Positions 21,250-56,004 of a stretch of DNA of 64,000 nucleotides are shown piece by piece. The notes beneath the pieces were generated by a model. The model was not told the DNA's origin. It searched no databases and saw nothing but the letters and a program-made list of their open reading frames with translations. Numbering within the stretch: position 1 is the stretch's first letter; each line of letters starts with the position of its first letter. The stretch comes from Hemileia vastatrix. Its lineage: Eukaryota > Basidiomycota > Pucciniomycetes > Pucciniales > Zaghouaniaceae. A program made the position numbers and the translations under genes. The stretch is from assembly GCA_030280995.1 (NCBI GenBank), contig JASXTE010000001.1:33289700-33353699 (forward strand), in the 5' to 3' direction.

Positions 21250-21260
21250 CTCACTGGTTG

Positions 21261-22433
21261 TGTCAGCCTAGGTATCCCCAGGACTGAGTATTTCTTATGC
21301 TAAAAATAAGATAACCTTAATTAAATTTAGCTTATATCTTAAAAATAAAGTTAAAACACTTATATATATGGTTATGATACATATATATATAATTATTACA
21401 CTATTATATGACTTATAGTAATTTAAACAGCTTATCCATAGCCTAATATTACTTATTAAGGTGTTAATGGAGTCATAATATACTTATACTAAGTGATATT
21501 AAGTAATTATAAACATACATAAGCTTATATGTATACATAAATCTCATATTCAGTGAAATATGTGGTATATTATGTATATTTAGGTCTATAAGTGGGTTTT
21601 ACCTCTTAATAGTCTATAAACTTTGTTTTCCTGCTTATTTTAGGTCATATGGACATATTAAGTGGCTTCACAACGCCTAAAAAGCATATACACCTATTTC
21701 AGGTGCATATACTCAGTTTGGACAACTTAATCTGCTTCCTTGGATGGATTTTCACGGATTTATGGGTTGGGAGATCAGTGCTGGGTTGATATGGATGCTT
21801 GGGGATTTTATTGGAGGCTTGGACATTTAATTTGATTCTTAATATGCTTTTGGTTTCATTATATTCTCTTTGGATGAGTTATTTTACCTGTTTCTTTATG
21901 GTATCCACTTTCATCTGTTTATTCTATTTATGGTACGGGTCTGTGGTATCATTAATTGTGATGGAGGGTCCTTACTAGAGGTCTAGGTGTTGAATCTGCT
22001 TGAATTTGAAGCCATGGGGAGGTTATGGGACCTCAAAGTGCTGTAATAGCCAGGGATAGCAGTGAAATCATCTGGATTGAAGGTCTGTGCACTCCAGTGG
22101 ATTTTGGTATAAGTAAGGGAGGATTTGACGGGTTATTTGACATCACTTACTTACTACACATCAAATAACCATTATAACACAATTTTATCATATAGAAATA
22201 TATTATAAAGCATCTATAAATTGATATTATCTTTATATAAGCTATAACTATATTTTATTTATCTATTTTCCACCACTAGCACGCATAAAAATCCAAGTAT
22301 TGTGAGTTTATATTGAGAATAACTATTTTATTAGTCTTCCCCTGAGGTTTAATCACTAAATCATTTATAAATCAGTAGTTGGACCATTAAAATTTACTAT
22401 TAAATCATTCTTAGATACTAGCATACACTGACA
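21261..22433 (-). repeat. 3' LTR of copia C1 (W1)
   Basis: Minus strand starts TGTCAGTGTATGC (22433) and ends CCTAGGCTGACA (21261), 1173 bp. It is an inverted match to W2 (23064-53322, interrupted). It follows the RNase H C-terminus of C1 by about 90 bp. The alternative is an unrelated solo LTR: no target duplication is visible at its far end (GGTTG against TATAG). Confidence 0.6.
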
Positions 22434-33718: not shown

Positions 33719-33895
33719 GGGGGTATCAATGTTCAGGGATCCGCAATTAGGGATCAGGAATTTTTTTTCTGGGATCAGACATTATTAATTGCAGAAGATT
33801 CTTATCCACTAGCCCAGGGGCTAGTGGATAAGAAATCCACCATAATGTATTATCCCACCTCTTATACCCCAATTTCCATTCATAATTCCTGATCC
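33719..33895 (+). repeat. Left TIR and subterminal repeats of H-b
   Basis: TIR 33719-33749. Inside it lies GGGATCAGGAATT (about 33751) with its inverted copy AATTCCTGATCCC (about 33882-33894), and a perfect hairpin with 15 bp arms CTTATCCACTAGCCC and a 2 bp spacer at 33801-33832. These are plausible transposase or Myb-protein binding sites. Confidence 0.75.
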
Positions 33896-33994
33896 CAAAC
33901 TCATCTCATCCATGATGGAACTGAAAGAAAGTCACATGACTCATAATTGCTGATGCCATTCTTAAGTCTTTCCTCACTCTATGATACTTAATTT

Positions 33995-35341
33995 TTGTGG
34001 CAAATACTTAAGTTTTTTTTCTATCTACACACCCCAACTGCACATTTGGTGGTGAATTCCCACTTCCCTCATCACATAACCCTTCCACTGGCAACAATGA
34101 AACACCTCTCTACTAGGAAGCTACTTCACTCAACAATGAATGCTATTACTTTTCTTTTAGTTCTTTACTATAAATCTGACTCTGATTTGGAAGATTCTTT
34201 TGCTTATATGTATTTTCTTTCCAAAAAGCATTACATCATCACTAGGGGGCCAAATCTTTATCATGATCCCCAATATGATCTGGCCTCCATTCTCAACATT
34301 CCTCATTTAAACTTCACCCAACTTTTTAGAACATCTCCTGATTCTTTCTTCAAACTTTATCAACTCATCTCCAATCATCCTATCTTTCATAACAATTCCC
34401 ATAACAAACAGTGTAATCCTGCCATCCAACTTGCTGTTGCACTATGTCTCTTTGACTCAAATGGAAATGGTGCTGCTGTAAGACGTTTGGATAATCTCTT
34501 TAACATAGGATATGTTACCGTGATATTATACACTAAGTGCTGTATGATTGCTATCCTTTCCCTCAAGTCTCAAACACTTGCTTAGCCAACTCCAGAACAG
34601 CAACTTGAATCCTCTCAAGTAATGCAAGCTGAAGGTTTCCCTGGCTGTGTAGGATTTGTTGATGGCACAACTATACCTTTGAGTCAAAAGCCTGCTCATG
34701 ATGGCAAAAAAAGTTTTATTCAAAATCTTCTCCAATTTCTCATTGTTCATGAACTAAATTTTTATCCTCCTTCTAGATACTCTATTGCTGTTCAACTTAT
34801 ATGTGATGTCAATAAAAAATTTATTGCTTTTCACAGTGGCTGCCCTGGATCATGTCATGACTCTTCCGTCTTCCAAAGAATGAGGATTTCTCAAACCCCA
34901 GACTCATACTTTGACAAATCTCAGTACCTCCTTTCAGACTCAGCATATGCAAGTGGGAATTACATTATACCTGCTTTCCATGGTGCAACCTTAGAAAATG
35001 ACCCCAAAACTAAATTTAATTATCACCTTGCCCAATCAAGAGTACAGATTGAAAATGCTATAGGTATCTCAAAGGGACAATTTTCTAGTTTTCAGGAGCT
35101 CAGAATCCAATTTCAAAAAAAATTGGAAATCAAAACTGCGAATCATTGGATCATGACTTGTGTTATACTCCACAATATCCTAGCTGATTTAAAGGATGAG
35201 TGGAATGATCTTTATGAAGAAGAGGATCCTGAACCAGCACCGGAGCTCCCCTCCCTTGAATCACAAAACATTCATTCAACCGGCATACACTCTGTCATTA
35301 TGCCTATTACTCTCCAACATTTCTCTTCACCACCCTTTTAA
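33995..35341 (+). pseudogene. PIF/Harbinger DDE transposase of H-b
   Basis: One frame of 448 codons interrupted only by TAG at 34583. N-terminal block DSDLEDSF, LFRTSPDSFFKLYQLI, IFHNNSH and NGNGAAVRR is typical of fungal PIF/Harbinger. Catalytic motifs: GFVDGTTIPL (D), then CPGSCHDS, LLSDSAYASGNYIIPAF (D) and SRVQIENAIGISKGQF (E). The Met at 33995 lies in frame, but the conserved region starts near 34190, so the real start may be later (34101 or so). The stop replaces the usual Trp of a WPT motif; H-a has TAG at the same codon. Apart from this the domain looks intact. Confidence 0.9.
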
Positions 35342-35809
35342 ATTATTTTTTGTACTCTCCAAATGTCCTCTTTGTGTACTTTATTCACTTGGTTTGGTAT
35401 TTTGGTATGTTGCATATTCATTTTTTTTTTGGAATTTACGGTGAATATCTTTTTTTTGGATGGTTCGTTAGTTTTCTTTCACCAGCTCAACATGAAATCG
35501 CATATTTTGTCAGTGATTTTTTTTTCATTCATCACTCATATCCTTTTCATCCTCTCCTCAAACATCACTCAAATATTTTTGTTACTTTTATTTTCTCAAC
35601 TCATCTCACCAGGTAAGTCTTTTTTTTTCTTTTTTCTTGTTTTTTATTTGCTAATCATGTTTTTTTTTATTTTGCTTTTTTTTGTTGTTTTTTTTTTTGT
35701 TTTTTTTTTTGTTTTTTTTTTGTAAGTCCTTTTTTATTTATTTTCAACGTTAGACTATTTTTTTTTTCTCTTTTTTCTCTTTTTTTTCTTTTTTTTTCTC
35801 TCCTTCACC
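35342..35809. other. T-rich downstream region of transposase
   Basis: Long T-runs. Reading frames are hydrophobic because of TTT/TTA content and have no homology that I recognise. No terminator or gene features identified. Confidence 0.5.
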
Positions 35810-36415
35810 CTATTTAGCTGCCTCATTTCACCCCTTTTCCTCTCTCTTTACCTGCCTCAAGTCTCTCCTTCTCCCCTCTCTTTACCTTCCTCAAGTCCCC
35901 CTTATTTCACCCTTTTTGCCTGTTCCAAATTCCCCCTTTCCCCCCTCTTTAGGTGCCTCATGACCCCCCCTTCCCCTCTCTTTAGGCGCCTCATTACCCC
36001 CCCTTCCCCTTTCTTTAACTGCCTCAAAATCCCCCTTCCCCCCTTTAGCCACCTCTACCCCTCCTCGTTCTAAACGAACAATTGCTAACAATCGTTTTTT
36101 AAGAACGAGGAGGGGCTAGAGGAAGCTTAAGGGGTGTTGAAGGAGGGTATGGGATCTAAATGGGGGAGTTTTTGAAGTGCATAAAGAGGGGGGGAAAGGG
36201 GGGGTTTGGAACATCTAAAGAGGGGTGAAGGGGGGGGTTTTGGGGGTTTTTGTGGCAATTAAGGAGGGGGTTTCAGAGGGATTTTGAGGCAGTCAAGGTG
36301 GAGATTTCAGGGTAGATTTGAGGCAAGGAGGGAGGAATTTTATAGGGGATTTCAGGGAAATAAAGAGGGGGAAAGGGGAATTTTATGGGAGTTAAAGAGG
36401 GGTTACCTATTTTTT
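35810..36415. repeat. Pyrimidine/purine quasi-palindrome of H-b
   Basis: C/T-rich units (CCTCATTTCACCCC-like, 35810-36060) face G/A-rich units (36110-36415). The centre is a hairpin with arms CCTCTACCCCTCCTCGTTCT (36051 on) and its near-perfect complement (36096-36117). The same arrangement lies between transposase and oxygenase in H-a. Confidence 0.8.
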
Positions 36416-36889
36416 AAAAAACATACTAAAATGTAATTTTTTTTTTTTTTTTTTGGCAGAATTTAAAAAAAAAACTTTTACTTTCTGTTAAGGTCTTTCC
36501 CTGTAAATTACAAAACAAAAAAGGTTTAGATTTTAATTTTTAATTTTTCTTCCAAATAATTTTACTGCATTTAATTTTTTTTTAATTTTTTTGTTTTGAT
36601 TTATCTTTTACTGATTTTTACTTTTTATTTTTTTTTTTAAATTATTTTGACAGGATTTTCTGTGATAGTTTTTTATAACCAAACTTCAGGTTTTCTTTAG
36701 TATTTTTTTTTTGAAATAATTTTTAATGAAAATTATTAATTTTTTTTTTGTTTTAAATTTTTTTTTTAAATTTTTTTAAAAGGATTTTGCTTTAAATTTT
36801 ATTTTAAAAGATATTATTACGTGAGTTTTTTTTTTAAAAATATGGGTTGAATTTTTTTTTGACATTTAAATTTTTTTCAGATCAAAAAA
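36416..36889. other. T-rich upstream region of the Tet-like gene
   Basis: Poly-T and AT-rich sequence ending in TTTTTTTCAG at 36880, which could be a 3' splice site just before the first Met. No further structure recognised. Confidence 0.45.
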
Positions 36890-38101
36890 ATGTCTTTTTC
36901 TTTAGATTCACCCCTTACTTCTCTATCATCTTCATCTTTATCCTCTTTATCCTCTTCATCTTTATCATCTCTATCATCTTCTTCAAAATCAACTTCAATA
37001 CAATCATCTTCTAAATCATCAAAAAAAAATTAAAGATAATCAGTCTCATCAGAAGAAAAGATATCTGAAAAAAAAAATTCTCTGCAAATGTTTTTTTGTC
37101 ATATCCCAAACATTTTTTTTCATAGAACTAAAGTAGATAAAAAAATTAAATATTCAAAAAAATTACCAGAAGATATCAAATATCTAACTGAATTTGGAGA
37201 TGATTGAGTTGTTGCAGTTTTCAGTAATACTTATAAGGCTCAATTCATTTTGGAAGTTCATACATTCGATTGTGTAAAAGATGAATCTTTTAATAAACTA
37301 TCGGATCTTATCATAACTCTTTATCAAATGGCTTTGGTTTGGTTACCTATAAGGAATACAAATTTGTTGGGTGGTATCATGATTGGATTTGGTTGGAGAC
37401 CTGGTTTCGTTAAAGGATATTCTCTTGGTATGTCTAATAATTTTTTTTCCATTCTTAATATCATTTCACTCATTTCAATTATATAGGCATATATTCATTG
37501 CTCAAGAATATCATTAAAGCTCAAAAAGATGAAGATTTTCGCTTATGGGACACTCTACCTTCCTTTAACTCTTTTCTTGCTCTTCCACTCAAAAAGCTCT
37601 GTAATAAAGCATTTGAAAAAAATCATGAACTTGCAACCAAATTGGTGTGACTCTGAATGGGAAGATATCAGCCAGGAATATCTTTTATTTTCTAATGTTT
37701 TTATCATTCATTCTGGATTCCACAATAGGATTCATATTGATAGGAATGACACCAATTTTCTTACTTTTGGTATATTCTCATATATCAATCCGATAACTTG
37801 CCAACCAATACCATCTCCAGCTAAAATTTAAGGACATGGTTTATATTTTCCAGACCACTAGTGCATTATTCATTTTGGTTTGGGAAAGGGTATCATTGAA
37901 ACTATTTGGAATTCTTCTAAGGATAATCATCAAACGACCAAAGCTTCTCCTGGTTTGGAATCCTGTAAAGATTTCACACATTTTGGTTGCTCATTTCAAA
38001 TCAGTCATAAGTTGATTCAAAGAATCAACAAGGTAAAGAAAGAAGGTAAAGTTAATCAATTTAAAAAAACTTTATCTAAACCCAAAAAGCATGGGGATTA
38101 G
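36890..38101 (+). pseudogene. Tet/JBP-like 2OG-Fe(II) oxygenase of H-b
   Basis: A putative Fe(II)/2-oxoglutarate dioxygenase of the group that hydroxylates 5-methylpyrimidines in DNA. Ser-rich N-terminus (36890-37030), LPEDIKYL, a conserved core to YSLG, an intron 37428-37486 (GTATG...TATAG), then a helical region. The core follows: NWCDSEWEDIS, IHIDRNDTNF (HxD at 37733-37741), INPITCQPIPSPAKI, FGLGKGIIETIWNSS and KDNHQTT (second His 37928-37930), ending KPKKHGD. The iron triad is intact. It is broken by in-frame stops (37033, 37206, 37829) and a deletion of about 14 bp near 37640 relative to H-a. A stop after the Ser-rich part is shared with H-a and may mark an unrecognised intron. Confidence 0.65.
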
Positions 38102-38986
38102 AGTTGTCATCAAAAAATTTATATTTTTTCATAAATTTTTAATAAATATTTTTTATATATCAATTTGCTCAAGTAAAGTGATGAGCCAAAAACCTTTGGT
38201 TGTATAACAAGTAATCATGATAGCATTTATTTGTTTCATGGGGTTCCTCTAGCCTATACCTGTGGAAAGTCCCAAACTTTTGTTTCTAGATTTGATCTGC
38301 ATTTTGGCTTGAGGAATTGTCATTACTTTAAACTAGAGAATTTGATATATATTAGATATTTATTTAATAATTTATGTAATTATATTAAATTTAGATGACT
38401 TCCACCCCTTACTTCAATAAAATGCAGGGGGGGGGGTATTGCCAAATTTTCAAATCTGACATGTGAAATTGATGACTTAGAAAAATTTTGGTGATATCCA
38501 CCCCTTGCTTCAACTTAAATGCAGGGGAGAGTATTGCCAATTTTTTAAAACAGATATAGAATTTTTTTGACTTGTAAATATTTTGGTGAAAATTTTTTGG
38601 TGATACCTGTCCCTTACTTCAATAAAATCCAGGGGGGATTTTGCCAAAATTTCTTATAAGACTTGTGAAATTCTTGACATGTAAGAATTTTGGGGATACT
38701 GGTAAAATGCAGGGGGTAGTAAAGCCAAAGTTTCAAATAAGACTTTCAAGATTCATGACATGAAAGAAATTTGGTGATACCCACCCCTTACATCAAAATA
38801 ATCCAGTGGTGGGAGATTGTCAAATTTTCAAAGGAGACATAAAAATTTTATTGAAAAAAAGAATATTTAACATTAAAAGACAAAAATTCAAGTAATGATG
38901 GATAGAGTAATGAAATAAAGGAAATTATTGTAATTTTTATGTAAAAATAAATATGAAAAGTTGAAGTGTGAAAGAAATAAAAGAAA
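38102..38986. repeat. Tandem array between oxygenase and Myb-like genes
   Basis: About 38395-38850 holds four degenerate units of roughly 105-125 bp with landmarks ACCCCTTACTTCAATAAAAT, GCAGGGG and TTGCCAAATTTTCAAAT. The two units near 15020-15180 in H-a are reverse-oriented relatives. The rest (38102-38390, 38850-38986) is AT-rich; a GGAAAGTCCCAAAC block (38271) also has a counterpart at about 15290. Convergent gene ends lie on both sides, so this may be the termination zone of both genes. Confidence 0.7.
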
Positions 38987-40348
38987 CTAGTCAACAAAAA
39001 ATTTCATTAATTGTTCTATTTCTTCAAAAGATTTGTTTGCTTTAACGCATTGGATCAAGAAATTGTTCTTTTTATCTTTCTTTTTAGAATTTTCTTTGAG
39101 ATCATGCTTATATTTCATTTGATCTAATAGGTTTTGATGTTTGAGTGTTTTCTCCTCTTTTTTTGATTTTTGAATACTTAGAGTTAACTCAAACTTCTTC
39201 TTCTCCAAATTTTGGGCCTGGTCATCCTTCTGTAAAGAGAGCTCGTACTTTCTCTCTTCAAAATATTGTAGCCTATCATCCATCATTAAAGAGAGCTTGT
39301 ATTTCTTCTTTTCAAAGCTTAGAGTCTCTTTAGCAATTTCCACTTGTTCTAGAGTGATAATAGAAATTAACATAATGTAGAAGAAAAGCAGAGTAAAGTA
39401 ATAAGAGGTATGGTATCACTTACCAGCATCACATTTCTCTAAAAATTGTTCCATAGATGAAAAAGGGGTTTGTGATGAAGTATCACTTTTTCTTCTTCTT
39501 TGGGAGTGGAAATTTAGACTACTTGAAGCCCTACGCTTCTTGTTCAAGGTCATATTTTCCTCCTCATTATTGTCACTACCTTCAGACTCAGTTGATTGAG
39601 GATCCTGGGTTTTTTCGTCAGCCTTTTAAGAAATAAGAAAAAGATAAGTAAATAAAAAAATAGAATTGATAAGATAAAAGAAAAAAGAAACAGACCTGAG
39701 TTAGATTTGGTTGGGTTAAATCACCAATAGAATCTACAGAAAAGCTATTTAGATTTGTCTCATTCAAATGAAGGGAGGCTTTAGTGGAGGAAGAGGATGG
39801 GAAAAGATTTGCTTCAATATCATGTTTGGAGATAGGATCTTCTCCATCCAACATGTTTACAGGATTAACATTGGCTTGCACTCCAAAAATTTCATCCATC
39901 TCTTTAAAGTAAGGAAATAAAGATTCAAGTTTATTGTCTATGGATTTGATGCCCTTAGTTATATCGATGTCAGTAACCCCAAACCAGTGGAAGATGAAAG
40001 AGCCTTTGCCTTCCTGTATTTGGCTCAGTAGTTCTTGAAGCGTTCAGCCATCTGTTTAGGTAAAAGATCAATCCTTCCCTTGGTCTTATTCCATAATTCA
40101 TTTGCCATTAGAAGATAGCCATTAACTTTTGATGCTGGTGGCCGTCCTACTTTAGTCGCATACTCAGTACCAAAACAAGAATCATAGTTAGATTTGGTTT
40201 TCAGCCAGTTGATAAGAATGAGATGATCGTCTTTTTTTAATTAAACAGTCTTAGATTTCTCAGCTGAGCGGGGGAAAGGGTGAGTTGTGGGATTTGAAGA
40301 ACAACTGGGTGATGGCTGCCTTTGAGAAGATCTAGGATGACGAGGCAT
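38987..40348 (-). pseudogene. Myb/trihelix-like accessory protein of H-b
   Basis: PIF/Harbinger elements usually carry a second gene for a Myb-like DNA-binding protein that works with the transposase. Start ATG at 40348 (MPRHPRSS). The DNA-binding-like part has DDHLILINWLK, LLMANELWNK and IDLLPKQMAERFK; then GVTDIDITKGI...KLESLFPYF, an acidic/Ser-rich linker, and a long charged helix (EKKKYKLSLMMDDR...) ending at 38987. Introns at 39623-39695 and 39349-39423, both GT-AG. A stop after SAEKSKTV, a TGA after RFKNY and a frame change nearby break it. Arrangement opposite to the transposase fits the family. Confidence 0.7.
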
Positions 40349-40600
40349 GTTAAAATATAAATGAAGATGAAAAGGAGCAGAAACAAGCAGATGAGATGGT
40401 GATGGGTTCTGAGCGGATAGAATGGACAGGATGGGATGAGAATGTGAGTGCGCATCAAGATAGAAGCCATATCCAGAGAGTAGTCCAAGATGTGGTTATG
40501 GCAGAAAGTAGGTCAAGATGTGGTTATGACAGAAAGTTGTCCAAGATGTTATGAAAAATTGAGTAAAAAAATGTTGGATAAGAGGTGAACATTGACACGT
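40349..40600 (-). repeat. Myb-like gene upstream region with 28 bp direct repeats
   Basis: Two and a half copies of a 28 bp unit around CAAGATGTGGTTATG at 40483-40553. Lies between the Myb-like start and the insertion site of Ty3-2 (TSD ACGT 40597-40600). May be a promoter or transposase-binding region. Confidence 0.7.
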
Positions 40601-41731
40601 TATGGTAAGGTAAACTCTTAAAGTCGCCTTGCTGTAAGCAGAATCCAGAGGAGATATGTGGATTTAGCTGAAAACCCGGTCCTTCCAACATAAATTACAA
40701 AGTAGGTGTTCTAAATCACTAATCTAACCAGTCTACTGGGATCTGATTGATAAAAATAATGAAACTCTAAAATATTTAACGCTTATTGAGATTTAATGAT
40801 TGTGGCTGTTGAGAAAGAAAAACTGATAACAACAATTAAGGTGTACCAGTGAAAGATCTGAAAAGATTGACTTTTATGTTTTTATAATAATTTGAATTTT
40901 TATGAGACAGCAATAATCAAGTCCCAACAATGAAGACCTTTCTAAAGATACCCTGTATGAAGTGTGATTTAAATTGTTGAGTAGTATTTCTAAAATGTTA
41001 TATATAAAATTTAAAGTTATAAGGGTATTACAAATTTATTTAATTTGTTGAGTAATAAAAAATAAGACCGTGGTGGTTGATGATTAAGCTGTATGATGTA
41101 TCCCCCCTCTCAATTTCGAGTTTGAGAGGCGCTTAAGTATTCCTAGTCACGTGCCTAAGTTTTCCCTTCCAGAGCTCTCCCAGAGTCAATCCGGAGCCCG
41201 TACGGAGTCGTACGGAGTCCGAATGGAGCTTGTACGGAGTCCGTCCAGAGTCCGTCCGGACTTCCGGACTCAATTAGAACCTTAAAAACTATAATAAAAA
41301 ATCTAGAAAAATTACACATAATAGAGCTACTTCCTCTTTATATTCCAAACTAATTTTCGTAGTCTGCACAGCTCTAATTACCCCATGAAAATTCATCAAA
41401 GTTAAGTAATTTCTGAAAATGTAAATATTTCTATAAAACTTTAAAATTCATTTAAAAATATAAGAAAAATAGTAAAAATTCTGGAAAAATTTCCCAATGT
41501 TCTTGAGTGACTCTACTTGTTACTAATAAACTTTTCAGACCGTAAAAATAAGTTTTCTCCGTAAAATAAATTGTTTTTGTGTAGGCATTTGCTCGTGACC
41601 AATTTCTTCATATTTAAAACTCAAATAAATTAAATAAAACCCTTTTATATAAAAATAATAACACCAATCTTGCACACCGTAATAACTCCATTTACGTACT
41701 TAGGTGTCATACTAAACTTTAGGCTACCACA
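40601..41731 (-). repeat. 3' LTR of Ty3-2
   Basis: 1131 bp. Contains a GC-rich block (about 41170-41275) of CCGTACGGAGTCCG-like repeats within otherwise AT-rich sequence; this block has one extra unit of about 15 bp compared with the 5' LTR. A 19 bp insertion near 41545 also differs. Minus-strand ends are TGTGGTAGCC and CCTTACCATA; the 3' terminus is TA rather than CA. Confidence 0.93.
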
Positions 41732-41748
41732 TCCTCCCTCCAATCGAG
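41732..41748 (-). promoter_or_regulatory. Polypurine tract of Ty3-2
   Basis: Minus strand GGAGGGAGGA directly before the LTR start TGTGGTAG; a purine run is expected here for plus-strand priming. Confidence 0.8.
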
Positions 41749-41854
41749 AATGTCCCCATTCTTAAAACTTTGCATAAGTGGTTGAACACAATATTCATCT
41801 TTAACCTTCAACCACCATCTTCTTTAATCAACTATAAAATTCATCTTCATCAAT

Positions 41855-42537
41855 ATGTCTTCCAAAGAACTTGTCGCTCCATGTGAACTCTGCGCTCGAT
41901 ACCAGGTACCTTGTTTAATGTCCAACCCTAATCTTCCTGGTAGGACAGCTTGCGACTTATGCCGTGTGAAAAAAGTCAAATGTAACCGGCCATTAGTTCC
42001 TTCTAAAACAAACGTATATTTAGGAACAGCAGCTCTCCCTGATCCCTCAACTTCTAAAAAGCGATCAAAAATTCCTGTCTTCTTAAAACAAATAAGATCA
42101 AAAGCAGCTTCAAAAGTTCAATCTTCATCAGCAGATCCCGGCCTTATTTTGCCTTCACAAGATCCTAATCCTATAACGCCAGTGCCCCTAACCAACTTTG
42201 CTGAGACTATGTTTCCTGGCTCTAAATGTAAGACCCTATTATCTTACTAAAAAAACTTTTAATCAAAATTTGACTAAACCTATGACTTAATAACATATTT
42301 GAACTTCTAGCTGTTGAAATAACCAACACTGATGATGTTGGTAGAGTGAAGACGGACTATATCAATCATTATCCAAATTTTCATTGCTATCTTTTTCTTG
42401 ACTTTACTAATGAGTTGAAACGAAAAATGCTGGCCTATTTTCAAGAAACTCCAGCTAATAACCATGAAGACCTCATGAAAAGAAGAATTTTAATGCAAAG
42501 CTTTGATAATGATGTTGAACAATTTCAAAGAAATTAG
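41855..42537 (+). CDS. Antisense Zn-cluster protein gene within Ty3-2
   Basis: Two exons, 41855-42227 and 42311-42537, joined across an 83 nt intron (GTAAGACC...CTTCTAG) that keeps frame, giving 199 residues. CELCARYQVPC and CDLCRVKKVKC form CX2CX6C-X12-CX2CX6C, matching the Zn(II)2Cys6 spacing. The basic residues are in the second half, as in many basidiomycete Cys-cluster proteins. The middle is Ser/Lys/Pro-rich; the end is a charged helix (FTNELKRKMLAYFQE). TATAAAATT lies at about 41833. It is transcribed opposite to the element, starting about 120 bp beyond the 3' LTR. The function is unknown; DNA binding is an inference. It could instead be a captured host gene. Confidence 0.75.
42228..42310 (+). 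other. Intron of the antisense Zn-cluster gene
   Basis: GTAAGACC at the 5' end and ACTTCTAG at the 3' end, with a possible branch sequence TGACTTAATA about 20 nt upstream. Splicing joins a T to CT to make a Ser codon and opens the frame through to 42537; without splicing the first exon stops at 42249. Confidence 0.75.
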
Positions 42538-43131
42538 CTTTTCTAACAGTATAACTTGATAAAATTTTGTTTTTGCTTGGTATTCTTTAACTTTCAACAT
42601 AAATGTTGTTTTCTTTCTTCTCTGGCTTGATATAACATAAAATAAAATAATATAAATCTTGTGATGATTCCACTACTGAGAGCAAGGTTTGAATCCCTTC
42701 AGACTCCCATATACCAGTCTTCCTTCTTGTCACAGCATTGAGAGAGTGGATCTTCCTATGAGCCGAATACTCCTGATTCCAACCTCATAGGGCCCCCCAC
42801 TGAGCCGAATTCTATGATTCCAATCTCGCCATAAGGTCCTCCAAGCTTCACACCAAAAATGGCCTAACACTGAGGCACTAAAAAAAATCATTCCCTAAAA
42901 TCCAACTACCATCCTAACTTCTGATTCCTTCATCACAATTTTCAAACTTTGCTATACAGCAAACCCATAAAATACTTTTGCCAGGCTTCCAATAATAATT
43001 TTAACTTTAGACCATGTTAAAGCGCCACAAATTTCACCTAATTAACCATTATGCTTTCATTAGCATCATCACCACCAAAATTTTAACCTCCTAAAGCTTA
43101 TCAGCACCCAATTCCAGAAATAATTGAATAA
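42538..43131. other. Ty3-2 3' region, non-repetitive part
   Basis: No gene seen. Holds a hairpin with perfect 8 bp arms CCTATGAG (42755-42762) and CTCATAGG (42784-42791), and two imperfect copies of a block around GAGCCGAAT...GATTCCAA (about 42760 and 42801). A possible 3' end of the antisense gene is around 42540-42600, but no clear poly(A) signal stands out. Confidence 0.5.
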
Positions 43132-43900
43132 CCAGTTTAGAGTCTTAGTGGACAGTGATAAATTAAAAGATTTAATTGAGTTATCCAAACAAGTTTGACA
43201 TTCCAATTTAAAGTCTTGGTAGACCAAACATATAATTGATTGCCAGTTTATGGTCTTGGTGGACCAAAGATTGTTTAGGTGCATAAATAACTTGATAAAT
43301 TCCTAAATAAAGCCTAGGCTTGACCAAATATTGAATAAATTTGATAATCCAGTTTAATGTCATAGTGGACCAAACATTTGATCTACAAGTAATCCAGTAT
43401 AAGGCCATAGTGGACCAATGAATGTTGAATTATCCTGAAGATATTAATTTTCCAGTTTAAAGTCATAGTTGACTAAACAATGAATGAACTACCAGTTTAA
43501 AGTCATGGTGGAGCAAACATTTGATCGATAAGAAATCCAGTTTAAGGTCATGGTGGACCCAACAGCTTGATAATAGTCCAGTTTAGGGTCTTGGTGGACC
43601 TAAAAAATCCAATAAAAAAAATTTTAACAATAGTCTTGAAAATTAGCCAGTTTAAAGTCTTGGAGGACTAAAAGCTCCAAAATTCGTATAAAACCTTAAG
43701 GAAAGTCTTGAACAGTAGCCAGTTTAAAGTCTTGGAGGACTAACAGCTCCAAAATACGTATAAAAAACCTTAAAGAACGTTATGAACAGTAGCCAGTTTA
43801 AAGTCTTGGAGGACTAACAGATCCAAAATAGGTATAAAAAACCTTAAAGAATTTCTTGAAAAGTAGCCAGTTTAAAGTCTTGGAGGACTAACAGATGTCT
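43132..43900 (-). repeat. Hexaloop hairpin array of Ty3-2 (13 copies)
   Basis: Copies begin at 43132, 43204, 43244, 43350, 43394, 43453, 43493, 43538, 43579, 43648, 43720, 43794 and 43868. Each is CAGTTTA followed by a 4 bp stem, a 6 nt loop (TTGGAG, TTGGTG, ATAGTG or similar) and the complementary stem. Stems are AGTC/GACT or GGTC/GACC, with mostly paired changes. The last four lie in a regular tandem repeat with a period of 72-74 bp. Single copies also occur at 44673 and within pol. Confidence 0.85.
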
Positions 43901-43979
43901 TGAAGTAAAATCCCATAGGTTTTAAGTTCCCCTAGACCCTGTTTCCTGTCTAACCTAAATGAATAAAACTTATAAAATG

Positions 43980-44137
43980 ATGACTGAAAAATAAAACTAA
44001 GAAATATAATAATATTTTTTATTTAATTAATTAATTTTTTTTTATTTTATTTTATTTTATTTTATTATTTTATTTTTATTTATTTATTTATATTTTTTAT
44101 TTCTTTATTTCTTTATTTTTTTTATTTTTTTATTTTA

Positions 44138-44168
<31 letters not shown>

Positions 44169-44340
44169 TTTATTTATTTTTAATTTTAATTTTGTTTTTA
44201 ATTTAAAATAAAAGATTTTAGAAAAGATAGTTTTTGAAATAAAAGTTAAAATTTAATTTTTAAAGAAAGATAAATGAATGTGAAAATAAAGATAAAAAAA
44301 GTAATAATAATAAAAAAATTTCAAAATAAAATTTCTAAAA
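43980..44340. repeat. ATTTT-rich low-complexity tract of Ty3-2
   Basis: TTTTA/TTTA-type simple sequence (strongest 44035-44170) followed by A-rich sequence. Corresponds in position to the 1.58 kb TTTTA array of Ty3-1. Confidence 0.85.
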
Positions 44341-44860
44341 GATGCCCCCCGGCCATTTGATGAGCCGTACCCTCGACATCATACCCACATCCAAGTGCAA
44401 CTTGATGTGGTTACACAATTTTGAGAAATTGAAAAGAAAGAAAATAAATGAAAGTTTTTAGAAGATAATTTTTATAATGATGATCACTGGGTGGGCTCCC
44501 TCCAATTTATAAAAATTATTAGAGACCACCAGTGAGCATCAACTTTGCAATAATTCATAATATATATTTAAAGGAAAGAAATCACAATCTAAAATAAAAA
44601 AAATCAAAATTTAAAAATAAAATAAAAAGAATCTTGAATCCGGCGTTGAGAGCGGTGTCTCTTGATTCGTTCCAGTTTATAGTCTTAGTGGACTTCCTAT
44701 AATTAAAAGACAAAGCCAGGATTTAACTAGAAACAGGGAAAAGTTTGAAAACGAACATTATGGGGTAATTGTGTATAGAGCAGCCAGCCCATCAATTACC
44801 CCCACACTTGCCAATATTAAATTAAGAAGGTTCCCCTGTGAACACTTCTTCCAATAAATA
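44341..44860 (-). other. Structured 3' segment of Ty3-2 with hairpins H1, H2, H3, H4
   Basis: H1: CCACATCCAAG / CTTGATGTGG (44385-44410). H2: TCACTGG(G)TGG / CCACCAGTGA (44484-44535). H3: hexaloop hairpin at 44673. H4: GGGGTAATTG / CAATTACCCC (44762-44802) with conserved loop AGAGCAGCCAGCCCAT. The same four occur in the same order in Ty3-1. The H4 stem differs by a paired C-G to T-A change. Confidence 0.75.
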
Positions 44861-45059
44861 TTTAAATTTTTCCAACACTATCTTCACCCATATTTTAAGA
44901 ATTTTAAATTTTGAAAATTTTCAAAGAAGGTTTTCTTGCATTTCGTTAAGTTTCATCATAGTTTCGTCGCCCATATGCAGTGTAACGACAGTAAAGTATT
45001 TTGATAAAAAGAAGATAGTTTATCCTCGTTGCGGAGGGATCCATAAAATTTCATTGATA

Positions 45060-45245
45060 TCATAGTTTATCCTCATTGCGGAGGAAGACTTCGGCACTCC
45101 TGGTGTCTCTAGGATAGAACTGCTTCACTTGATCGGCCGCTACCCTCTTCTTCAATTCTACTCCATCCAACTCTTCTAACACATATGAACCGCCGGAAAC
45201 TTGCTCCTTGATTTTATACGGTCTATTCCACCTATCTGCAAACAT
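45060..45245 (-). pseudogene. C-terminal tail of Ty3-2 integrase
   Basis: In frame with the integrase ORF but separated by two stops (TAA 45354-45356, TAG 45255-45257). FADRWNRPYKIKEQ and GSYVLEELDGVELKKRV match the SH3-like tail seen in Ty3 integrases. Ends with TGA at 45060. Ty3-1 has CAA and CAG at the two stop positions, so both stops are C-to-T changes of Gln codons or readthrough sites. Confidence 0.75.
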
Positions 45246-45353
45246 CTTTCCCCACTAACTTTCCAAACTCCTATTATACACCAGGACCATATCACCTGGG
45301 TTCAAAGGTTTCCTTAATCGATGTGCCAACCCCTCATCCCAATATCTAACTGA

Positions 45354-46436
45354 TTAATTTCTGATCTTCATCATCTGCGAATATGCCTTTTCTAAATATT
45401 CTTCTTTCTTTTCTAGCTGCATCATTCTTGCACACAATAATTCATCAGTAGTTTTGACCGTATCCCAGTCAACTCCAAGATATGATTCAGCTTCTAAATC
45501 AACCGGTAAAACTGCTTTCTGTTTAAAAACAAGTTCATAAGGTGAAAATCCGGTCGTCCTTTTGGCAGTGATTTGATCAGCAAATAAAACTAAAGGTAAA
45601 TAGTGCCTCCACTTTTCGGCACTTGTCCCACACATTTTAACTAAAGCATCCTTAATAACTTGATGCCCTCTTTCAACCATGCCTTCAGCTTCAGGATAAT
45701 ATGGGGTTGCTACCCTAACCTTTGATCCAACTTTCAATACGGCCTCTTTAAACTCTGTCCCAAATTCAGGACCTCCATCTACCATTACCAACTTCATCAC
45801 CCCATACCTATATACCCAATTATTCAAAAAAAATTCTGCCACATTTTTGGCAGTCAAATTAATAAGAGGCGCTGCCTCTACCCAACCAGATAAATCATCT
45901 CTGGCCAAAATTAAATATTTATACCGTCCCTCTTTTATATAAACGGCATCTAAACTAACTCTTCCAAAGAGCGTATATTCACCGGTCGCGCGTCCAGGTT
46001 CTTTTGGCCTTAAATAACTTCGTCTTTGACATTCTTTGCATGACTGAACCCACTGTTTAACAGCCATCTTCATTCCAGGCCACCAAAATTGATCAGAAAT
46101 TCTTCTAAACATTTCTCCAACGCCTCCATGCCCGAGATCTTCATGAAGTGATTTCAAAACTAATTCTTGCCCCTTCTGTTGAGTTATAACTACTTGAGGA
46201 TTTGGATACCTCCTCCTCATTAAACGTTGACCAGATAGGTAAAACGTAGATGACTTCCTCTTGATAGCCACCCATTCATCGTCTTCACAATCTTCTGGCC
46301 TCTCTAAAGTCAACAAATATTTGACTAACAAAAAATAAAAACCAGTCTGACCCCAGAATTCATCTTGAAAATCGATTAATATAACATCAATAGGGACTTC
46401 TCTATCACCAATATCACCTGCACATGAATGAGCCAA
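45354..46436 (-). CDS. Ty3-2 integrase
   Basis: 360 residues from the first Met, but the frame is open upstream to the TAA at 46509 and is continuous with RT-RNase H. The HHCC zinc domain includes HEDLGH and CKECQRR. The catalytic core has D in VSLDAVY, D in MVDGGPEFG and E in EAEGMVERGHQ, the DDE triad of retroviral-type integrases. It would insert element cDNA in the nucleus. No chromodomain is visible, unlike in chromoviruses A and B. All catalytic residues are present. Confidence 0.9.
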   Translation of the reverse strand: MAHSCAGDIGDREVPIDVILIDFQDEFWGQTGFYFLLVKYLLTLERPEDCEDDEWVAIKRKSSTFYLSGQRLMRRRYPNPQVVITQQKGQELVLKSLHEDLGHGGVGEMFRRISDQFWWPGMKMAVKQWVQSCKECQRRSYLRPKEPGRATGEYTLFGRVSLDAVYIKEGRYKYLILARDDLSGWVEAAPLINLTAKNVAEFFLNNWVYRYGVMKLVMVDGGPEFGTEFKEAVLKVGSKVRVATPYYPEAEGMVERGHQVIKDALVKMCGTSAEKWRHYLPLVLFADQITAKRTTGFSPYELVFKQKAVLPVDLEAESYLGVDWDTVKTTDELLCARMMQLEKKEEYLEKAYSQMMKIRN

Positions 46437-46508
46437 TAATCGTTGACCCCTAAATAAATCTTTAATCGAGCTATGTCGACGTTTTTCTTCTGAACCTTTG
46501 GATCCTTC

Positions 46509-49226
46509 TTAAACCGTATTTGAAAATACCTCTTTCTCTTTATACACCCTTTTATTTAAATTCTCTAATTCTCCAACATATACACCATTCCTTAATTTAC
46601 TACTATCCCACACTACCAATCCATCTTCCTCTACATACACCACATCTTCTTCTACCTCCTTTCTACTGAATTTATCTACACCTTTTCCAACACCTTTATT
46701 AACATAAAAACTATTTTCCAGTTTATCCTCTTGGTGGAGGTCATCATCACCATAATCTAAACACAATAGTCCTTCCAGTTTAACCTCATGGGGGAGGTAT
46801 GGAAAGTCTTCAGCTCCTTTAGTGCTGGCTTTAATTATAGGTATATCTTCATCAAACTCTTCTGATTCTGAATCTTCTTCAGTGGGTGGTCTCCTTGATA
46901 AACCATCTGGCATAGTAAAGGTTTTGCCAGGCTTATGAACTAAATCAAACGAAAAATGTTGAATAAAAGCTACCCATCTTGTCATGGGTGCATTCGGTAA
47001 ACTTGGGGAATTAATCATCTGGATTAACGATTTCGCATCCACTTGCAACTCAAAATGTTGCCCCCACAAAATATGCTGAAGTTTCTTCAGTATTTTTGCC
47101 ACACCACATAATTCCAATTTTGGTTGAGAATATCTTGATTCGACCTCAGTAAATACTACAGATTCATACCTAACTGGCCTGATGTAACCAGCTTTATCCA
47201 TCTGAGACAAAACCGCCCCAGCTGCAACCTGACTTAAATCAACTGCTAAATAAATTCTGCCAGCATCTTTTCCATAATCCAACTTGTGCAGGACTAAATC
47301 CTTTCCCACAACCTCCTTCAACTTCACAAATGCCTTCTCACACTCTTCATCCCACTCCCAGTCTGCATCCTTTCTCGTTAATCGTCTCAATGGAGCTGCC
47401 AATGAAGAAAAGTCCTTGATAAACATTCTAACATATACACAAACGCCTAAAAACCCTCTAACTTCGGTCGTATTCTTGGGTCTTGGCCAGGACTGAATTT
47501 TGTTAACTTTCTTCTTGGACATAATCCTACCCTCTCTACATACCACATGGCCTAATATTTCTAAGGCTGGCACACAACAGGAAAATTTTGAGCCTGAAAT
47601 AGTTAACCCAGCCTCTTCAATTCGAAACAAGATTCTTTCTAATGTAATTGCAAACTCCCAAATGAATTTGCGTATAGCGGGATTCTCTTCCAACACCTGG
47701 TTATCATAGTCGGTTGTTGGTCCCTTAATTCCTCCATCATCTATAAAGATTCCAGCATATTGTGGAATTTTGCCTTGAAGGATCCAAGCCATCTGAGCTT
47801 GATAAACTGCAACGGAATTTGTTGCTCCTTGAGGTAATCTTTTTAACTGTAAATGTCCAAGTGGCGTATCAAATGTAGTGAGAGGCCTTGAGTCCAGATG
47901 TAACTCTCTCTCATCATATCCACCCATAATATCTCCCAAACCATAACACACTCTCCCTGCAAACGCTTCAACAAACTCCTCAGCACTAGGCGGTATCCCA
48001 GCATCCTTTATTGTAACCCTATTTAATTCCCTAAGATCATGAACAACTCTAAGCTTGCCATTCGGTTTCTTGATACAAAATACCAGACTAGAATAACTTG
48101 ATGTTGATTGCTCATACAGTCCAGTGCGTATCCGTTCTCTGACAACTTCAATATAGGCTTCTTTTAATGCAGCTGGAATAGGAATCAGTTTCTGCTGCCA
48201 CGGTTCATGACATACCACAGGAATCTTGTAAGGCTCCCCATAGGAATACTTCAACACACCCCTCTCCTCTTCTACAAAAGCAATGGCCTTCTCTCGCTTG
48301 ACCATCACATCCAACAACAACTTCTTCTCTTCTCCAGACAACCAACCATCAGGTCCAAAATTAACAACACCCAGTCTCTCAAAAGTGATTCTTGACGTCT
48401 CAGAAAATTCAGGCGGATTCTTTACCAAGGGACTTTCATAAGGATTTCTTGATAACCTTGGTCTTCTCAAGGGTGGATTTAATTCAGCAGGTAGCGGTTC
48501 ATTAATAGGTCGAACTTTATTTGCTACCTTCTTATATTTGGCTGCGTCCACATCTAAATAAACTTGAGGTAAAACATTTACTTTTGTATCGCCATTACAT
48601 ATTTCATCAAATGAATCTTCTTCATTGCCAGAATCGGAATAAGAAAAATTAGAAAAATATTTTATTATATTATTAAATTTTACCCTTTTCTCCTTTCCCT
48701 TGTCTAATTTATAAACAGATTTTCCAACACCTTTGCTTCCCTTATCCAACAGTAAATCACCCGTAAAGAAAGTTGGCAGTTTATCCTCTTGCTGGAGGAC
48801 CAGAATTGAATTTTCACAAAAATTATTTTTTTGTGTTTTAATTATACTGAGATTTTTTATTGGATTTTGATGTGATATTTGCAGTTTACCCTCTTGCTGG
48901 AGGTCCAAAATAGAAGGAGATGATTGCAGTTTAACCTCTTGCTGGAGGTCATAAAACATACCCTTCCAACCTTTATCCAACCTAATTTGGCCCATTTTGC
49001 CTTTTTCACCATTTTTAAATTTTATAGAAAAACAGGGTAAATCCAATAAACATATAGAAAAGTCCATAAGGTATTTGCACTCCAAAGTAATATTAACAGA
49101 AAATAATTGAGAATCCACTTGAATTATCTCCAAGTGAGCTGACCTATTGCAATCCGGGATCTCATCCTGAGGAGAAATTACAACATTAGAGTGATCAGCC
49201 CCTGCTACCCCAAAAAATGAGGGCAT
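46509..49226 (-). CDS. Ty3-2 reverse transcriptase-RNase H
   Basis: 905 residues, in the -1 frame relative to protease. A linker of about 280 residues contains the repeated LQQEVKLQ/LQQEGKLQ peptide encoded by hexaloop hairpins. RT spans about residues 300-540: RVVHDLRELN, LPQGATNSVAVYQ and FIDDGGIKGP with both catalytic Asp. RNase H is at about 620-780: LAVDLSQVAAGA, FELQVDAKS, MPDGLSRRPP. An acidic tail follows, with a TAA at 46509. The frame reopens after it into integrase, so the intact protein was one RT-RH-IN polyprotein. The real N-terminus comes from frameshifting rather than the Met at 49226. Confidence 0.93.
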   Translation of the reverse strand: MPSFFGVAGADHSNVVISPQDEIPDCNRSAHLEIIQVDSQLFSVNITLECKYLMDFSICLLDLPCFSIKFKNGEKGKMGQIRLDKGWKGMFYDLQQEVKLQSSPSILDLQQEGKLQISHQNPIKNLSIIKTQKNNFCENSILVLQQEDKLPTFFTGDLLLDKGSKGVGKSVYKLDKGKEKRVKFNNIIKYFSNFSYSDSGNEEDSFDEICNGDTKVNVLPQVYLDVDAAKYKKVANKVRPINEPLPAELNPPLRRPRLSRNPYESPLVKNPPEFSETSRITFERLGVVNFGPDGWLSGEEKKLLLDVMVKREKAIAFVEEERGVLKYSYGEPYKIPVVCHEPWQQKLIPIPAALKEAYIEVVRERIRTGLYEQSTSSYSSLVFCIKKPNGKLRVVHDLRELNRVTIKDAGIPPSAEEFVEAFAGRVCYGLGDIMGGYDERELHLDSRPLTTFDTPLGHLQLKRLPQGATNSVAVYQAQMAWILQGKIPQYAGIFIDDGGIKGPTTDYDNQVLEENPAIRKFIWEFAITLERILFRIEEAGLTISGSKFSCCVPALEILGHVVCREGRIMSKKKVNKIQSWPRPKNTTEVRGFLGVCVYVRMFIKDFSSLAAPLRRLTRKDADWEWDEECEKAFVKLKEVVGKDLVLHKLDYGKDAGRIYLAVDLSQVAAGAVLSQMDKAGYIRPVRYESVVFTEVESRYSQPKLELCGVAKILKKLQHILWGQHFELQVDAKSLIQMINSPSLPNAPMTRWVAFIQHFSFDLVHKPGKTFTMPDGLSRRPPTEEDSESEEFDEDIPIIKASTKGAEDFPYLPHEVKLEGLLCLDYGDDDLHQEDKLENSFYVNKGVGKGVDKFSRKEVEEDVVYVEEDGLVVWDSSKLRNGVYVGELENLNKRVYKEKEVFSNTV

Positions 49227-50248
49227 TCATCCATTTCCAACAAACATAATTCACCAGAAGCCGTCCGTTTTATATGCCGCTTCTTGGTGCAAACACAACA
49301 CTGGCACAGAGTAGTAATCCCTGGCCGTGTTTCCCAACCTTCATCTCCAGGAGGCGCTAACCGCATATGTAACCTCCGCATATCTTCACCAGTGATCTCC
49401 AAACTAATCCCCATGCCAGCTTGATACCCTATCCTGGCCTCAAAATCCATCAAAAAAGGACCACCAAGAACAGTTTTGACTGCTCCTCTGGCCACATAAA
49501 AGTGAACCTTACCAACAGATCCACCAATGCCTAAACTGACATGCTCAGCTGTACCCATCAGCTCAGTTGCATGCCCTCCAATGCCTCTGAGGTTTCCCCC
49601 AGTTCCACTTTTAATTGGCAAGCCTATACTCGTCGCTTGCTCCAATGAAATTAAATTAATTTGAGACCCTGAATCGACCAAGGCCTTTACTTCTTTACCA
49701 TTAAGAGTTACCACCAGGTAACCCAGGGGAGTGGAAAAATGTGTATCTACATCTTCCCCAAACTTTTCAGCATTTTCACAAATATATTCCACCTCTCCAG
49801 TGGAAACCCGACGCCTTGTCAAATGCTTCTTTTGCTTTTCAGCAAGCGCCGGACTAATCGTAAATAACTCCCCCAAAGATAAGGGAATCTGCAGTTGATT
49901 CACCCTATTCAAAACTGCGTCCATTGCATTAGCTTGACCAGAAACTACTGGCCGCTCATACTGGACCTTTGATTTAACAACCTTGGCCCTGGGTACCTCT
50001 TGAGGTCTAACCAAGCCATCTTCACCCCCCATTATAACATCTTCACTTTCTATAACCCTAACTCCGTCACCAGCTTCTTGCACTAATCCTGATCCATCGC
50101 TAGTCCTTCTTACACCCTCCATTGGGATAGGACGGCTAAAACTTGGTCTGGGTAGAGAGGCCAATGGTACGTCCTCCTCAGAATCCAAATCATCCTCTGG
50201 CATAGGCTCACCATTTAAATCAAACTTGCCATAACTAGGGGGGCCCAT
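49205..50248 (-). CDS. Ty3-2 aspartic protease
   Basis: 347 residues, in the same frame as gag and separated from it by one TAG and five codons. ALVDSGSQINLIS carries the catalytic Asp; VLGGPFLMDF is the second conserved loop. The N-terminal 150 residues are a polar spacer. It ends ECPHFLG at TAG 49205-49207, right after the slippery heptamer. Ty3-1 has CAG instead of TAG at the gag junction, so gag-protease is ancestrally one protein. Confidence 0.9.
   Translation of the reverse strand: MGPPSYGKFDLNGEPMPEDDLDSEEDVPLASLPRPSFSRPIPMEGVRRTSDGSGLVQEAGDGVRVIESEDVIMGGEDGLVRPQEVPRAKVVKSKVQYERPVVSGQANAMDAVLNRVNQLQIPLSLGELFTISPALAEKQKKHLTRRRVSTGEVEYICENAEKFGEDVDTHFSTPLGYLVVTLNGKEVKALVDSGSQINLISLEQATSIGLPIKSGTGGNLRGIGGHATELMGTAEHVSLGIGGSVGKVHFYVARGAVKTVLGGPFLMDFEARIGYQAGMGISLEITGEDMRRLHMRLAPPGDEGWETRPGITTLCQCCVCTKKRHIKRTASGELCLLEMDECPHFLG
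49211..49217 (-). promoter_or_regulatory. -1 frameshift heptamer T TTT TTG, Ty3-2
   Basis: Protease frame reads CAT TTT TTG GGG TAG; the heptamer is in X XXY YYZ phase. Slippage by -1 continues as FFGVAGADHSN into the 905-residue polymerase ORF. The overlap between the two frames is only 22 nt, so this is the only plausible shift site. Confidence 0.8.
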
Positions 50249-50263
50249 ATCAGCAATCCCCTT

Positions 50264-51817
50264 CTACATTTTATATAATTCGTCCTTAGAGTAAGGGTTC
50301 AATTTGTTGACGGCAGTTTGAGCACTAGAATTCTTGTCCTTAGAGTAAGGGTTCAATTTGTTATTGGCCTTGCCAGGATTAGCCCTCAATTGGCTCTGAA
50401 TGCTACTTTCCGCCTTAGTAGAAGCTGCTCTTCTAGCAGCATTAACATTGTATTTGCCAGCCATACAGCTACCCTCCACCTGGGCAACCGTCGCCAGCTC
50501 TAAACCTCCAAAAGAAGTAGAAAATGTGGCTTTACTGACCTCTTTCTCTTTACCTTTGTCAGCTTTACCACCATTACCATTACCATTTTTGCCACCTTTG
50601 GCATTAACATCTTCATCGGACACCTCTTCAAATCTGGCTCTCCTATCAGCCGTTAAACTTCTTCTGACCAAATCAGAAGGAGACTGTCCATCACTAGGCT
50701 TGATGAACGAACCATCAGGAAATTTATAAACTTTACCATCAAATAAAACTCGCCCAGCATCCATATCCTTATCAAGAGCAAAACAAACTGTTGCTCTGTG
50801 CCCCCTCCTATTACAATAGGAGCACACCTTTGGCTCATCGTAGCCACCTCTATATCCATTACTACCACCATTCCCACCATTTCTCCCATTTCCTGGGAAG
50901 CGGTTACCATTATTATTGCCATTATAATTTTGACGTTCATAACCTCTGGACTGATAAGAAGTTGACGTCGACGAAGAAGCGATTGGGGCCTTATTGGCCT
51001 TCTGGGTTTCTTGAACAAATATTTTTAATTGTTTTGTTAAATCGGCCAGGTGATCGACCATCTTATTATCTACATTGCCCTCCACTTTAGCAGCAGGTAA
51101 TCCCATTTGTGCCTTCTTGGCCTCCTGGGCTTTGACCATAATATCGTTGTTTTCGGCCAAAACTTTTCTAACCTTGCTAAAATATTGAGTGCAAGACTCT
51201 TGATATTTGTCCAATGCTAACAACTTGAGATGGGCCTGAATGTTCTCTTTGATAACCTCCAGAGCCGGAAGTTTCTGCTCACCATTAGGCAGTTCCTTCA
51301 TAAAATCTTTTCTTGAAAGATCCTTCAAGACGTCCATTCGAATATCCCTGCTGCATGCTGTCCAAAACAAATCTTTTGCCTGGTTCTCATGCACTAACTC
51401 GTCCACCAATATGAGATATTCCACCACTTCATCAAACTGAACACACAGCTTTTTGAAGTCTGCCATAGAAGAAACACCACCTTTTTCTTGCCAGTCTCCA
51501 ACAATTTTATTGAGGTCCATCATAGTAAACCTAACACCCCATCTATCAACCATAGCTTTAGAAAGCTTAACCCAATCCTTGTCCTTAAATGCCTGCATAG
51601 CAATAACCTCTTTTTCCACCTCCCTATCAGCAATAAAAAATCTAACTTGCTTCACCATGTCCACATGAGAAGCACCATCAACAGCAGCAGCAGCTTCATA
51701 CCTGCTAATGAACCATTTAACCTCCTCCCCATCAAACTTTGGGCCATCCCAAGAAACAATTCTAACTGAGGGAGTAAGAGGGTTAGAAGATCCAGAAGCA
51801 ACAGCAGAAGAAGACAT
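50264..51817 (-). CDS. Ty3-2 gag
   Basis: 517 residues. An alpha-helical capsid-type N-terminal half (SWDGPKFDGEEVKWFI to about residue 230) resembles retrotransposon gag domains. A Gly/Asn-rich stretch precedes a CCHC knuckle CSYCNRRGHRATVC (CX2CX4HX4C). The C-terminal Lys/Asn-rich region has NKLNPYSKD twice. The stop is TAG at 50264-50266; Ty3-1 has CAG. The start is the first Met, 158 nt downstream of the PBS. Confidence 0.92.
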   Translation of the reverse strand: MSSSAVASGSSNPLTPSVRIVSWDGPKFDGEEVKWFISRYEAAAAVDGASHVDMVKQVRFFIADREVEKEVIAMQAFKDKDWVKLSKAMVDRWGVRFTMMDLNKIVGDWQEKGGVSSMADFKKLCVQFDEVVEYLILVDELVHENQAKDLFWTACSRDIRMDVLKDLSRKDFMKELPNGEQKLPALEVIKENIQAHLKLLALDKYQESCTQYFSKVRKVLAENNDIMVKAQEAKKAQMGLPAAKVEGNVDNKMVDHLADLTKQLKIFVQETQKANKAPIASSSTSTSYQSRGYERQNYNGNNNGNRFPGNGRNGGNGGSNGYRGGYDEPKVCSYCNRRGHRATVCFALDKDMDAGRVLFDGKVYKFPDGSFIKPSDGQSPSDLVRRSLTADRRARFEEVSDEDVNAKGGKNGNGNGGKADKGKEKEVSKATFSTSFGGLELATVAQVEGSCMAGKYNVNAARRAASTKAESSIQSQLRANPGKANNKLNPYSKDKNSSAQTAVNKLNPYSKDELYKM

Positions 51818-51860
51818 CCCAATAAGTAATGAAAAGCGTTAACAATCGATAAAATAACAA

Positions 51861-51922
51861 GCCTCTTGCAGGCCAATAACAAAAATCCAATTAGAGTTCC
51901 AGAAAATATGCCTCTTGCAGGC
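51861..51922. repeat. Two GCCTCTTGCAGGC mini-hairpins in Ty3-2 leader
   Basis: Identical 13 bp palindromic sequences at 51861-51873 and 51910-51922, between PBS and gag. They share CCTCTTGC with the CCTC-type hexaloop hairpins in pol and may be degenerate members. Confidence 0.7.
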
Positions 51923-51974
51923 TAAGAACGTTCTTGATCCAAGTAAGTCTTTAAAGAAAGCTAGAGAAATTGAA

Positions 51975-51992
51975 CCCCACGTTGGGCGCCAA
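51975..51992 (-). promoter_or_regulatory. Primer binding site of Ty3-2
   Basis: TTGGCGCCCAACGTGGGG on the minus strand, one base after the LTR end. Nearly identical to the PBS of Ty3-1. Confidence 0.85.
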
Positions 51993-51993
51993 C

Positions 51994-53095: not shown

Positions 53096-53099
53096 ACGT

Positions 53100-55969: not shown

Positions 55970-56004
55970 CTCCCTCACTCTAAAAAAAAAACAATAAAAA
56001 AATG

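Follow-up and report, generated by a model that had tools for sequence, protein, structure and literature searches.

Does a rust-fungus DNA transposon of the PIF/Harbinger type carry a Tet-like oxygenase gene as a regular part of its equipment, and what could such an enzyme do for the transposon? The question was raised by H-b, an element in a 64 kb stretch of the Hemileia vastatrix genome (contig JASXTE010000001.1, positions 33,289,700 to 33,353,699; GC content 32.9%), here called the window, whose numbering is used throughout. The genome searched comprised 747.6 Mb in 791 contigs. We consider it fairly probable that H-b belongs to an abundant rust transposon whose full form combines a DDE transposase, a Tet-like oxygenase and a weakly Myb/SANT-like protein, and in which the oxygenase would relieve silencing. 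Judged by its domain match and its ends, H-b itself is a decayed copy of a PIF/Harbinger-type DNA transposon, as a preliminary description of the window had stated. The transposase gene (34097..35341, + strand) is a reading frame with one internal stop at 34583-34585. The frame of H-b itself (34586-35338) matched PF13359 (DDE_Tnp_4) with E 1.4e-22, the transposase of the copy L012 with E 4.7e-26. The left terminal repeat (33719..33748, + strand) starts with GGGGGTATCAATG and shows the same 30-base end as other copies; the right terminal repeat (53182..53211, - strand) was assigned by its end match, exact at 53199-53211, and by continuity with other copies. Terminal inverted repeats with GGGGGTATCAATG, up to 30 bases long, were present in all ten two-ended copies compared. 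Together with a 3-bp target duplication, treated below, the DDE_Tnp_4 transposase and the inverted ends are the PIF/Harbinger features present. The GGGGGTATCAATG 13-mer had 8645 matches genome-wide versus five for the reversed control; the two matches inside the window alone are not above chance.

The oxygenase gene of H-b comprises exon 1 (36890..37427, + strand), which matches exon 1 of the copy L010, an intron of 59 bases (37428..37486, + strand; GTATGT...TATAG) and exon 2 (37487..38101, + strand), the homologue of the L010 exon, with the sequence HID at 37733-37741. Both exons contain stops, and exon 2 has a frame break in addition. The H-b gene is too broken for a strong profile match: a 61-residue piece reached E 0.025 against PF20515 (Tet-like 2OG-Fe(II) oxygenase), under the cut-off, and the 74-residue exon 1 piece matched no family in a Pfam scan. 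The assignment to Tet-like dioxygenases, proposed earlier for H-b, was instead carried by relatives, namely the spliced L010 oxygenase (E 1.5e-37), the L045 oxygenase (E 2.3e-35) and a 111-residue piece from H-a, the second element of the window (E 4.2e-7, over the cut-off). The HxD motif reads HID in 11 of 16 copies. Asn replaces Asp in the other five, among them L023, which also lacks the His. A downstream His (NHQTT), aligned in five of six alignment rows with the sixth row cut off there, is presumably the metal ligand. A sequence search for solved Tet structures gave no match to the oxygenase. Genome-wide, PF20515 yielded 10,849 first-look candidates. All 150 places scored were over the cut-off and at least 60 were stop-free by our own count; none of 14 control genomes had a match. 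The loci L045, L046, L048 and L049 belong to a related subfamily of Tet-like genes, in which long frames stay open through the intron position, and L047 is a more distant member of it. Just downstream of the H-b oxygenase, imperfect tandem repeats of 81 and 95 bases were observed (38387-38780).

By comparison of copies and by genome-wide counts, the pairing of oxygenase and transposase is real. From the 100 ends at the head of the match list, which all lie on contig C2, twelve stretches were fetched. Ten of these are two-ended copies and were counted; L019, a 513-base stretch with a single end, and L020, which has all three genes but no right end, were left out. The ends of the ten copies lie 5.5-7.3 kb apart. 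All ten matched the transposase and the third gene, and eight matched the oxygenase. Exon 1 is retained in L009 and L010, is replaced along with the upstream part in L011, L013, L014, L015, L017 and L018, and the entire oxygenase is swapped for about 1.7 kb of other sequence in L012 and L016. Genome-wide, with up to three mismatches, the transposase motif had 2875 matches and the oxygenase motif 3987; the reversed controls had 0 each. Spacing was assessed with the 100 listed exact oxygenase sites and the 83 of 100 listed exact transposase sites that fall in the stretch covered by the former. For 31 of the 83 transposase sites, an exact oxygenase site lay on the same strand, 2.1-4.5 kb further downstream, versus 0 pairs in control arrangements (opposite strand or order) among the matches listed; 69 of the 100 listed oxygenase sites had no listed transposase partner. 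The repeated co-occurrence of the genes between the same ends is supported. There are also short elements: all four that were fetched (L041-L044) measure 417-448 bp and are made up of this family's two ends.

Such a pairing might reflect a passenger captured by chance, without benefit to the transposon. Exon 1 or the whole gene is indeed often missing (in 8 of the 10 copies examined), and some of the copies concerned have open transposase frames. We nevertheless regard a mere passenger as quite improbable, given the stop-free PF20515 places counted above and omega values of 0.12-0.29 between diverged copies. For H-a versus L010, the oxygenase omega was 0.19 (bootstrap 0.13-0.27, 328 codons) and 0.12 for exon 2 alone; L023 versus L010 gave 0.29 and H-a versus L023 0.26. 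By these ratios the oxygenase evolved under purifying selection. Between H-a and L010, third-position identity was 0.58 over 333 oxygenase codons and 0.41 over 377 transposase codons, a difference reached by 0 of 20,000 shuffles. This difference hints at an exchange of the oxygenase segment between lineages, with unequal constraint or saturation as alternatives.

The copies also record what such an enzyme would work against, a decay of CpG sites. In the left 1.65 kb, aligned for 12 sequences, C-to-T changes affected 0.23 of TCG and 0.17 of other CpG sites; for the right 1.9 kb, with 10 sequences, the values were 0.21 and 0.12. CpA, CpC and CpT sites had 0.010-0.034 in both copy alignments, and sites whose neighbour was unresolved (0.05-0.06) were set aside. 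CpG cytosines thus decay 3.5-23 times faster than other cytosines, and the inserted copies were presumably methylated. Hypermutation at TCG has been reported for rust repeats (PMC12730594). The decay reaches the catalytic centre: the HxD codons of L010 are CAT ATC GAT, and in five of 16 copies with data the last reads AAT (Asn), while three more have ATT GAT. Since the Asp codon follows ATC, a CpG spans it, which would account for its conversion to Asn. The persistence of CpG decay, which pure erasure would reduce, speaks for an oxygenase that makes a lasting modified base (5-hydroxymethylcytosine (5hmC) or another) and so tags the element, either for expression or for the transposase, an idea also raised for such enzymes by Kojima 2025 (PMC12730594). 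However, no modifying partner enzyme was seen among the three genes of the element, and we hold a lasting mark to be improbable.

The anti-silencing reading is supported by the PF20515 and DDE_Tnp_4 matches, by the conserved order and spacing of the genes and by the omega values of 0.19 and 0.29. In this scheme the transposase and the third protein would act on the element ends, the latter probably helping the transposase to bind them. Myb-like proteins of other Harbinger elements help the transposase to bind the ends. The oxygenase of intact copies is predicted to oxidise 5-methylcytosine, and the oxidation may, for a time, relieve the silencing of the transposon genes or keep the ends competent. 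The oxygenase would act in trans, so that copies devoid of it could spread too. Inserted copies would then become methylated and decay, with methylation and CpG mutation prevailing in the end. The anti-silencing role, including activity, timing and action in trans, is inferred. Several observations weigh against it. Two of the ten two-ended copies lack the oxygenase and six lack exon 1; L012, one of the former, has an open transposase frame. For 20 further ends without a near partner, taken in order along C2 and followed 9 kb inward each, oxygenase exon 2 was within reach in only six. The transposase (at least 20% of it) was found in eight, the third gene in nine, all three genes in four and none in seven, L034 having a 7% transposase piece only; the many single ends without oxygenase count against the pairing. 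The young pairs L009 or L029 versus L015 had omega values near 0.7-1.0, no sign of present constraint, as expected of copies decaying after insertion. CpG sites decay at the element ends too: the end-repeat CpG was intact at 24 of 50 ends and in the TG/CA form at 16, thus methylation-type decay extends to the ends. As the ends and the catalytic Asp codon decay as well, protection by the enzyme would be temporary at best. A bolder reading, tentative and somewhat unlikely in our estimate, treats the Tet-like gene as a public good and an exchangeable cassette within one genome: the gene would have moved between Harbinger lineages whose transposases diverged much further, stripped cheaters with the same ends would use the enzyme in trans, and the CpG decay that the enzyme should counteract would go on destroying the gene (Asp to Asn at ATCGAT). 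L031 was considered as a proven oxygenase-free Harbinger lineage. It has a GGGGGTATCAATG end followed by a diverged transposase of 61% identity (L031:51-3305), and neither oxygenase nor third gene was found within 9 kb; as a right end was not found either and a helicase-like frame lies inside these 9 kb, it was reduced to a lead.

The third gene of H-b (38987..40348, - strand) is divergent and broken, with two stops in 218 aligned codons; it encodes a coiled-coil-like C-terminus and a weakly Myb/SANT-like N-terminal part. Scanned alone, exon 1 matched PF13837 (Myb_DNA-bind_4) in four of five copies, the best with E 5.4e-4, below the curated cut-off. The spliced L012 product had no Myb match in the Pfam scan, and the fold of a 71-residue piece was uninformative. 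The Myb-like character proposed earlier is weakly supported, the third protein being weakly Myb/SANT-like by its profile scores.

The second element of the window, H-a, had been described as having the same three-gene layout as H-b. Two of the three genes are still recognisable. Its oxygenase region (14989..16618, - strand) is related to the H-b oxygenase, with 77% identity to L010 over 1.6 kb, and has the splice donor at the matching place, in agreement with the common intron position noted before. The HxD core attributed to both genes is present as HID in H-b and reads HTN in H-a (at about 15824). Transposase remnants (19260..20302, - strand) include a 114-residue piece matching PF13359 with E 1e-13, and contain eight stops in 377 aligned codons. 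The third gene was not recovered: the family gene reached a best E of 0.32 in H-a, not significant, and none of five H-b third-gene pieces matched H-a at 1e-3. H-a was therefore rejected as an equal three-gene copy. No GGGGGTATCAATG end was found in H-a at up to two mismatches. About 0.8 kb between its oxygenase and transposase (17190-17960) has no L010 counterpart and looks like an insertion.

The extent of H-b had to be revised. The preliminary description gave 33719..40600, with a right start and a wrong end. At 40601..53095 (- strand) lies a long terminal repeat (LTR) retroelement foreign to H-b, about 12.5 kb long and recognised by its LTR pair and by Pfam matches to reverse transcriptase, RNase H and integrase. 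Its LTRs (40601-41731 and 51994-53095) are 95% identical, ACGT flanks it on either side (40597-40600 and 53096-53099), and its domain order is, by our own reading, as in Ty3/Gypsy. The H-b sequence before and after this retroelement runs on as in the uninterrupted L010 and L009 ends, so that the whole element (33719..53211, + strand) has both ends and is split by the insertion; an end at 40600 was thus ruled out. Without the retroelement H-b measures about 6.99 kb. An uninterrupted relative of the insertion site (21251..22139, - strand) matches both outer flanks of H-b, and its junction could not be fixed because the region is too AT-rich. Positions 4660-10151 are related to 45061-50269 within the nested retroelement (69-77% where alignable), which suggests a second, older relative of it. 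Elsewhere in the window, positions 1-1580 consist of TTTATT repeated in tandem about 265 times, and two 7-kb stretches in opposite orientation (25793-32885 and 55241-62310) are 88% identical, the second with a reverse transcriptase frame.

Canonical PIF/Harbinger elements create a 3-bp target duplication, TWA; in this family a 3-bp duplication, of the form AWT, is shown at one empty site. The clear case is L010, whose insertion interrupts another copy's third gene. The empty site reads GGTCTTATTGCGTAATTC at eight loci (the L010 element's own copy as well as L011, L012, L013, L014, L016, L018 and L040) and a one-base variant of it at three more, and the interrupted site reads GGTCTTATTA-element-TATTGCGTAATTC. 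As excision must leave one ATT, the duplication comprises 3 bp and the element ends are AGGGGG...CCCCCT. A TA duplication as sole reading was rejected, since the empty site fits ATT and not TA. The pairing itself is known. The preliminary description had been aware of no established description, but Kojima 2025 (PMC12730594) reports 15 TET+ Harbinger families ("PHISTA") in six rust species and proposes an escape from methylation-based silencing. These families make TA duplications, and their third protein is stated to lack Myb/SANT. Could the present family be an ordinary PHISTA with TA duplications, the 3-bp reading being an accident of target preference? In 12 of 15 end pairs the element is flanked by TA directly at either side, and L012 and L043 fit TA without a matching 3-bp repeat. 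On the other hand, 10 of the 15 have the identical AWT left and right of the element (damaged flanks in 3 of 15), and the eight uninterrupted GGTCTTATTGCGTAATTC loci, with the three variants beside them, require ATT and misfit TA, so that this explanation appears rather unlikely.

Hemileia is absent from the main text of that paper (PMC12730594), and a literature search for Hemileia vastatrix with TET and dioxygenase found none. As far as that text describes PHISTA, the new aspects would be the Hemileia host, the 3-bp AWT duplication, the weakly Myb/SANT-like third gene and the oxygenase-losing copies. The family thereby adds a further rust to those with Tet-like enzymes on transposons, here with a very high number of copies, and raises doubt that TA duplications are the rule for all TET+ Harbinger elements. 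Since copies that share these ends occur in full, truncated and oxygenase-free form, they offer a natural comparison by which methylome data could test the anti-silencing idea. Among known systems, the KDZ elements (Kyakuja, Dileera, Zisupton) are fungal DNA transposons with TET/JBP genes (PMC12730594); their transposase differs from the DDE_Tnp_4 of this family. CcTET of Coprinopsis cinerea, a transposon-linked fungal Tet-like oxygenase with HxD, is of the AG type and has shown 5-methylcytosine (5mC) activity (PMC12730594), whereas the protein described here matches PF20515 and had no solved Tet structure as a match by sequence. The Nuwa group of Harbinger resembles this family in its 3-bp duplication and in having a Myb/SANT-type protein beside the transposase, the Myb match here being below the cut-off, but has two proteins and no Tet-like oxygenase (PMC12730594). 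PHISTA of Puccinia and Austropuccinia, likewise rust elements bounded by terminal inverted repeats, share with this family the Harbinger-type DDE transposase, the Tet-like oxygenase and the presence of a third protein. Oxygenase and third gene are thus present as in PHISTA, and a TA duplication was not found at the empty site. The difference, taken from the published description only, lies in TA versus 3-bp ATT at one clear empty site and in no Myb/SANT versus a weak match. Membership in PHISTA is not claimed; the 3-bp duplication and the weak Myb/SANT-like protein are features whose absence set PHISTA apart from Nuwa, and the family is therefore best regarded as a variant.

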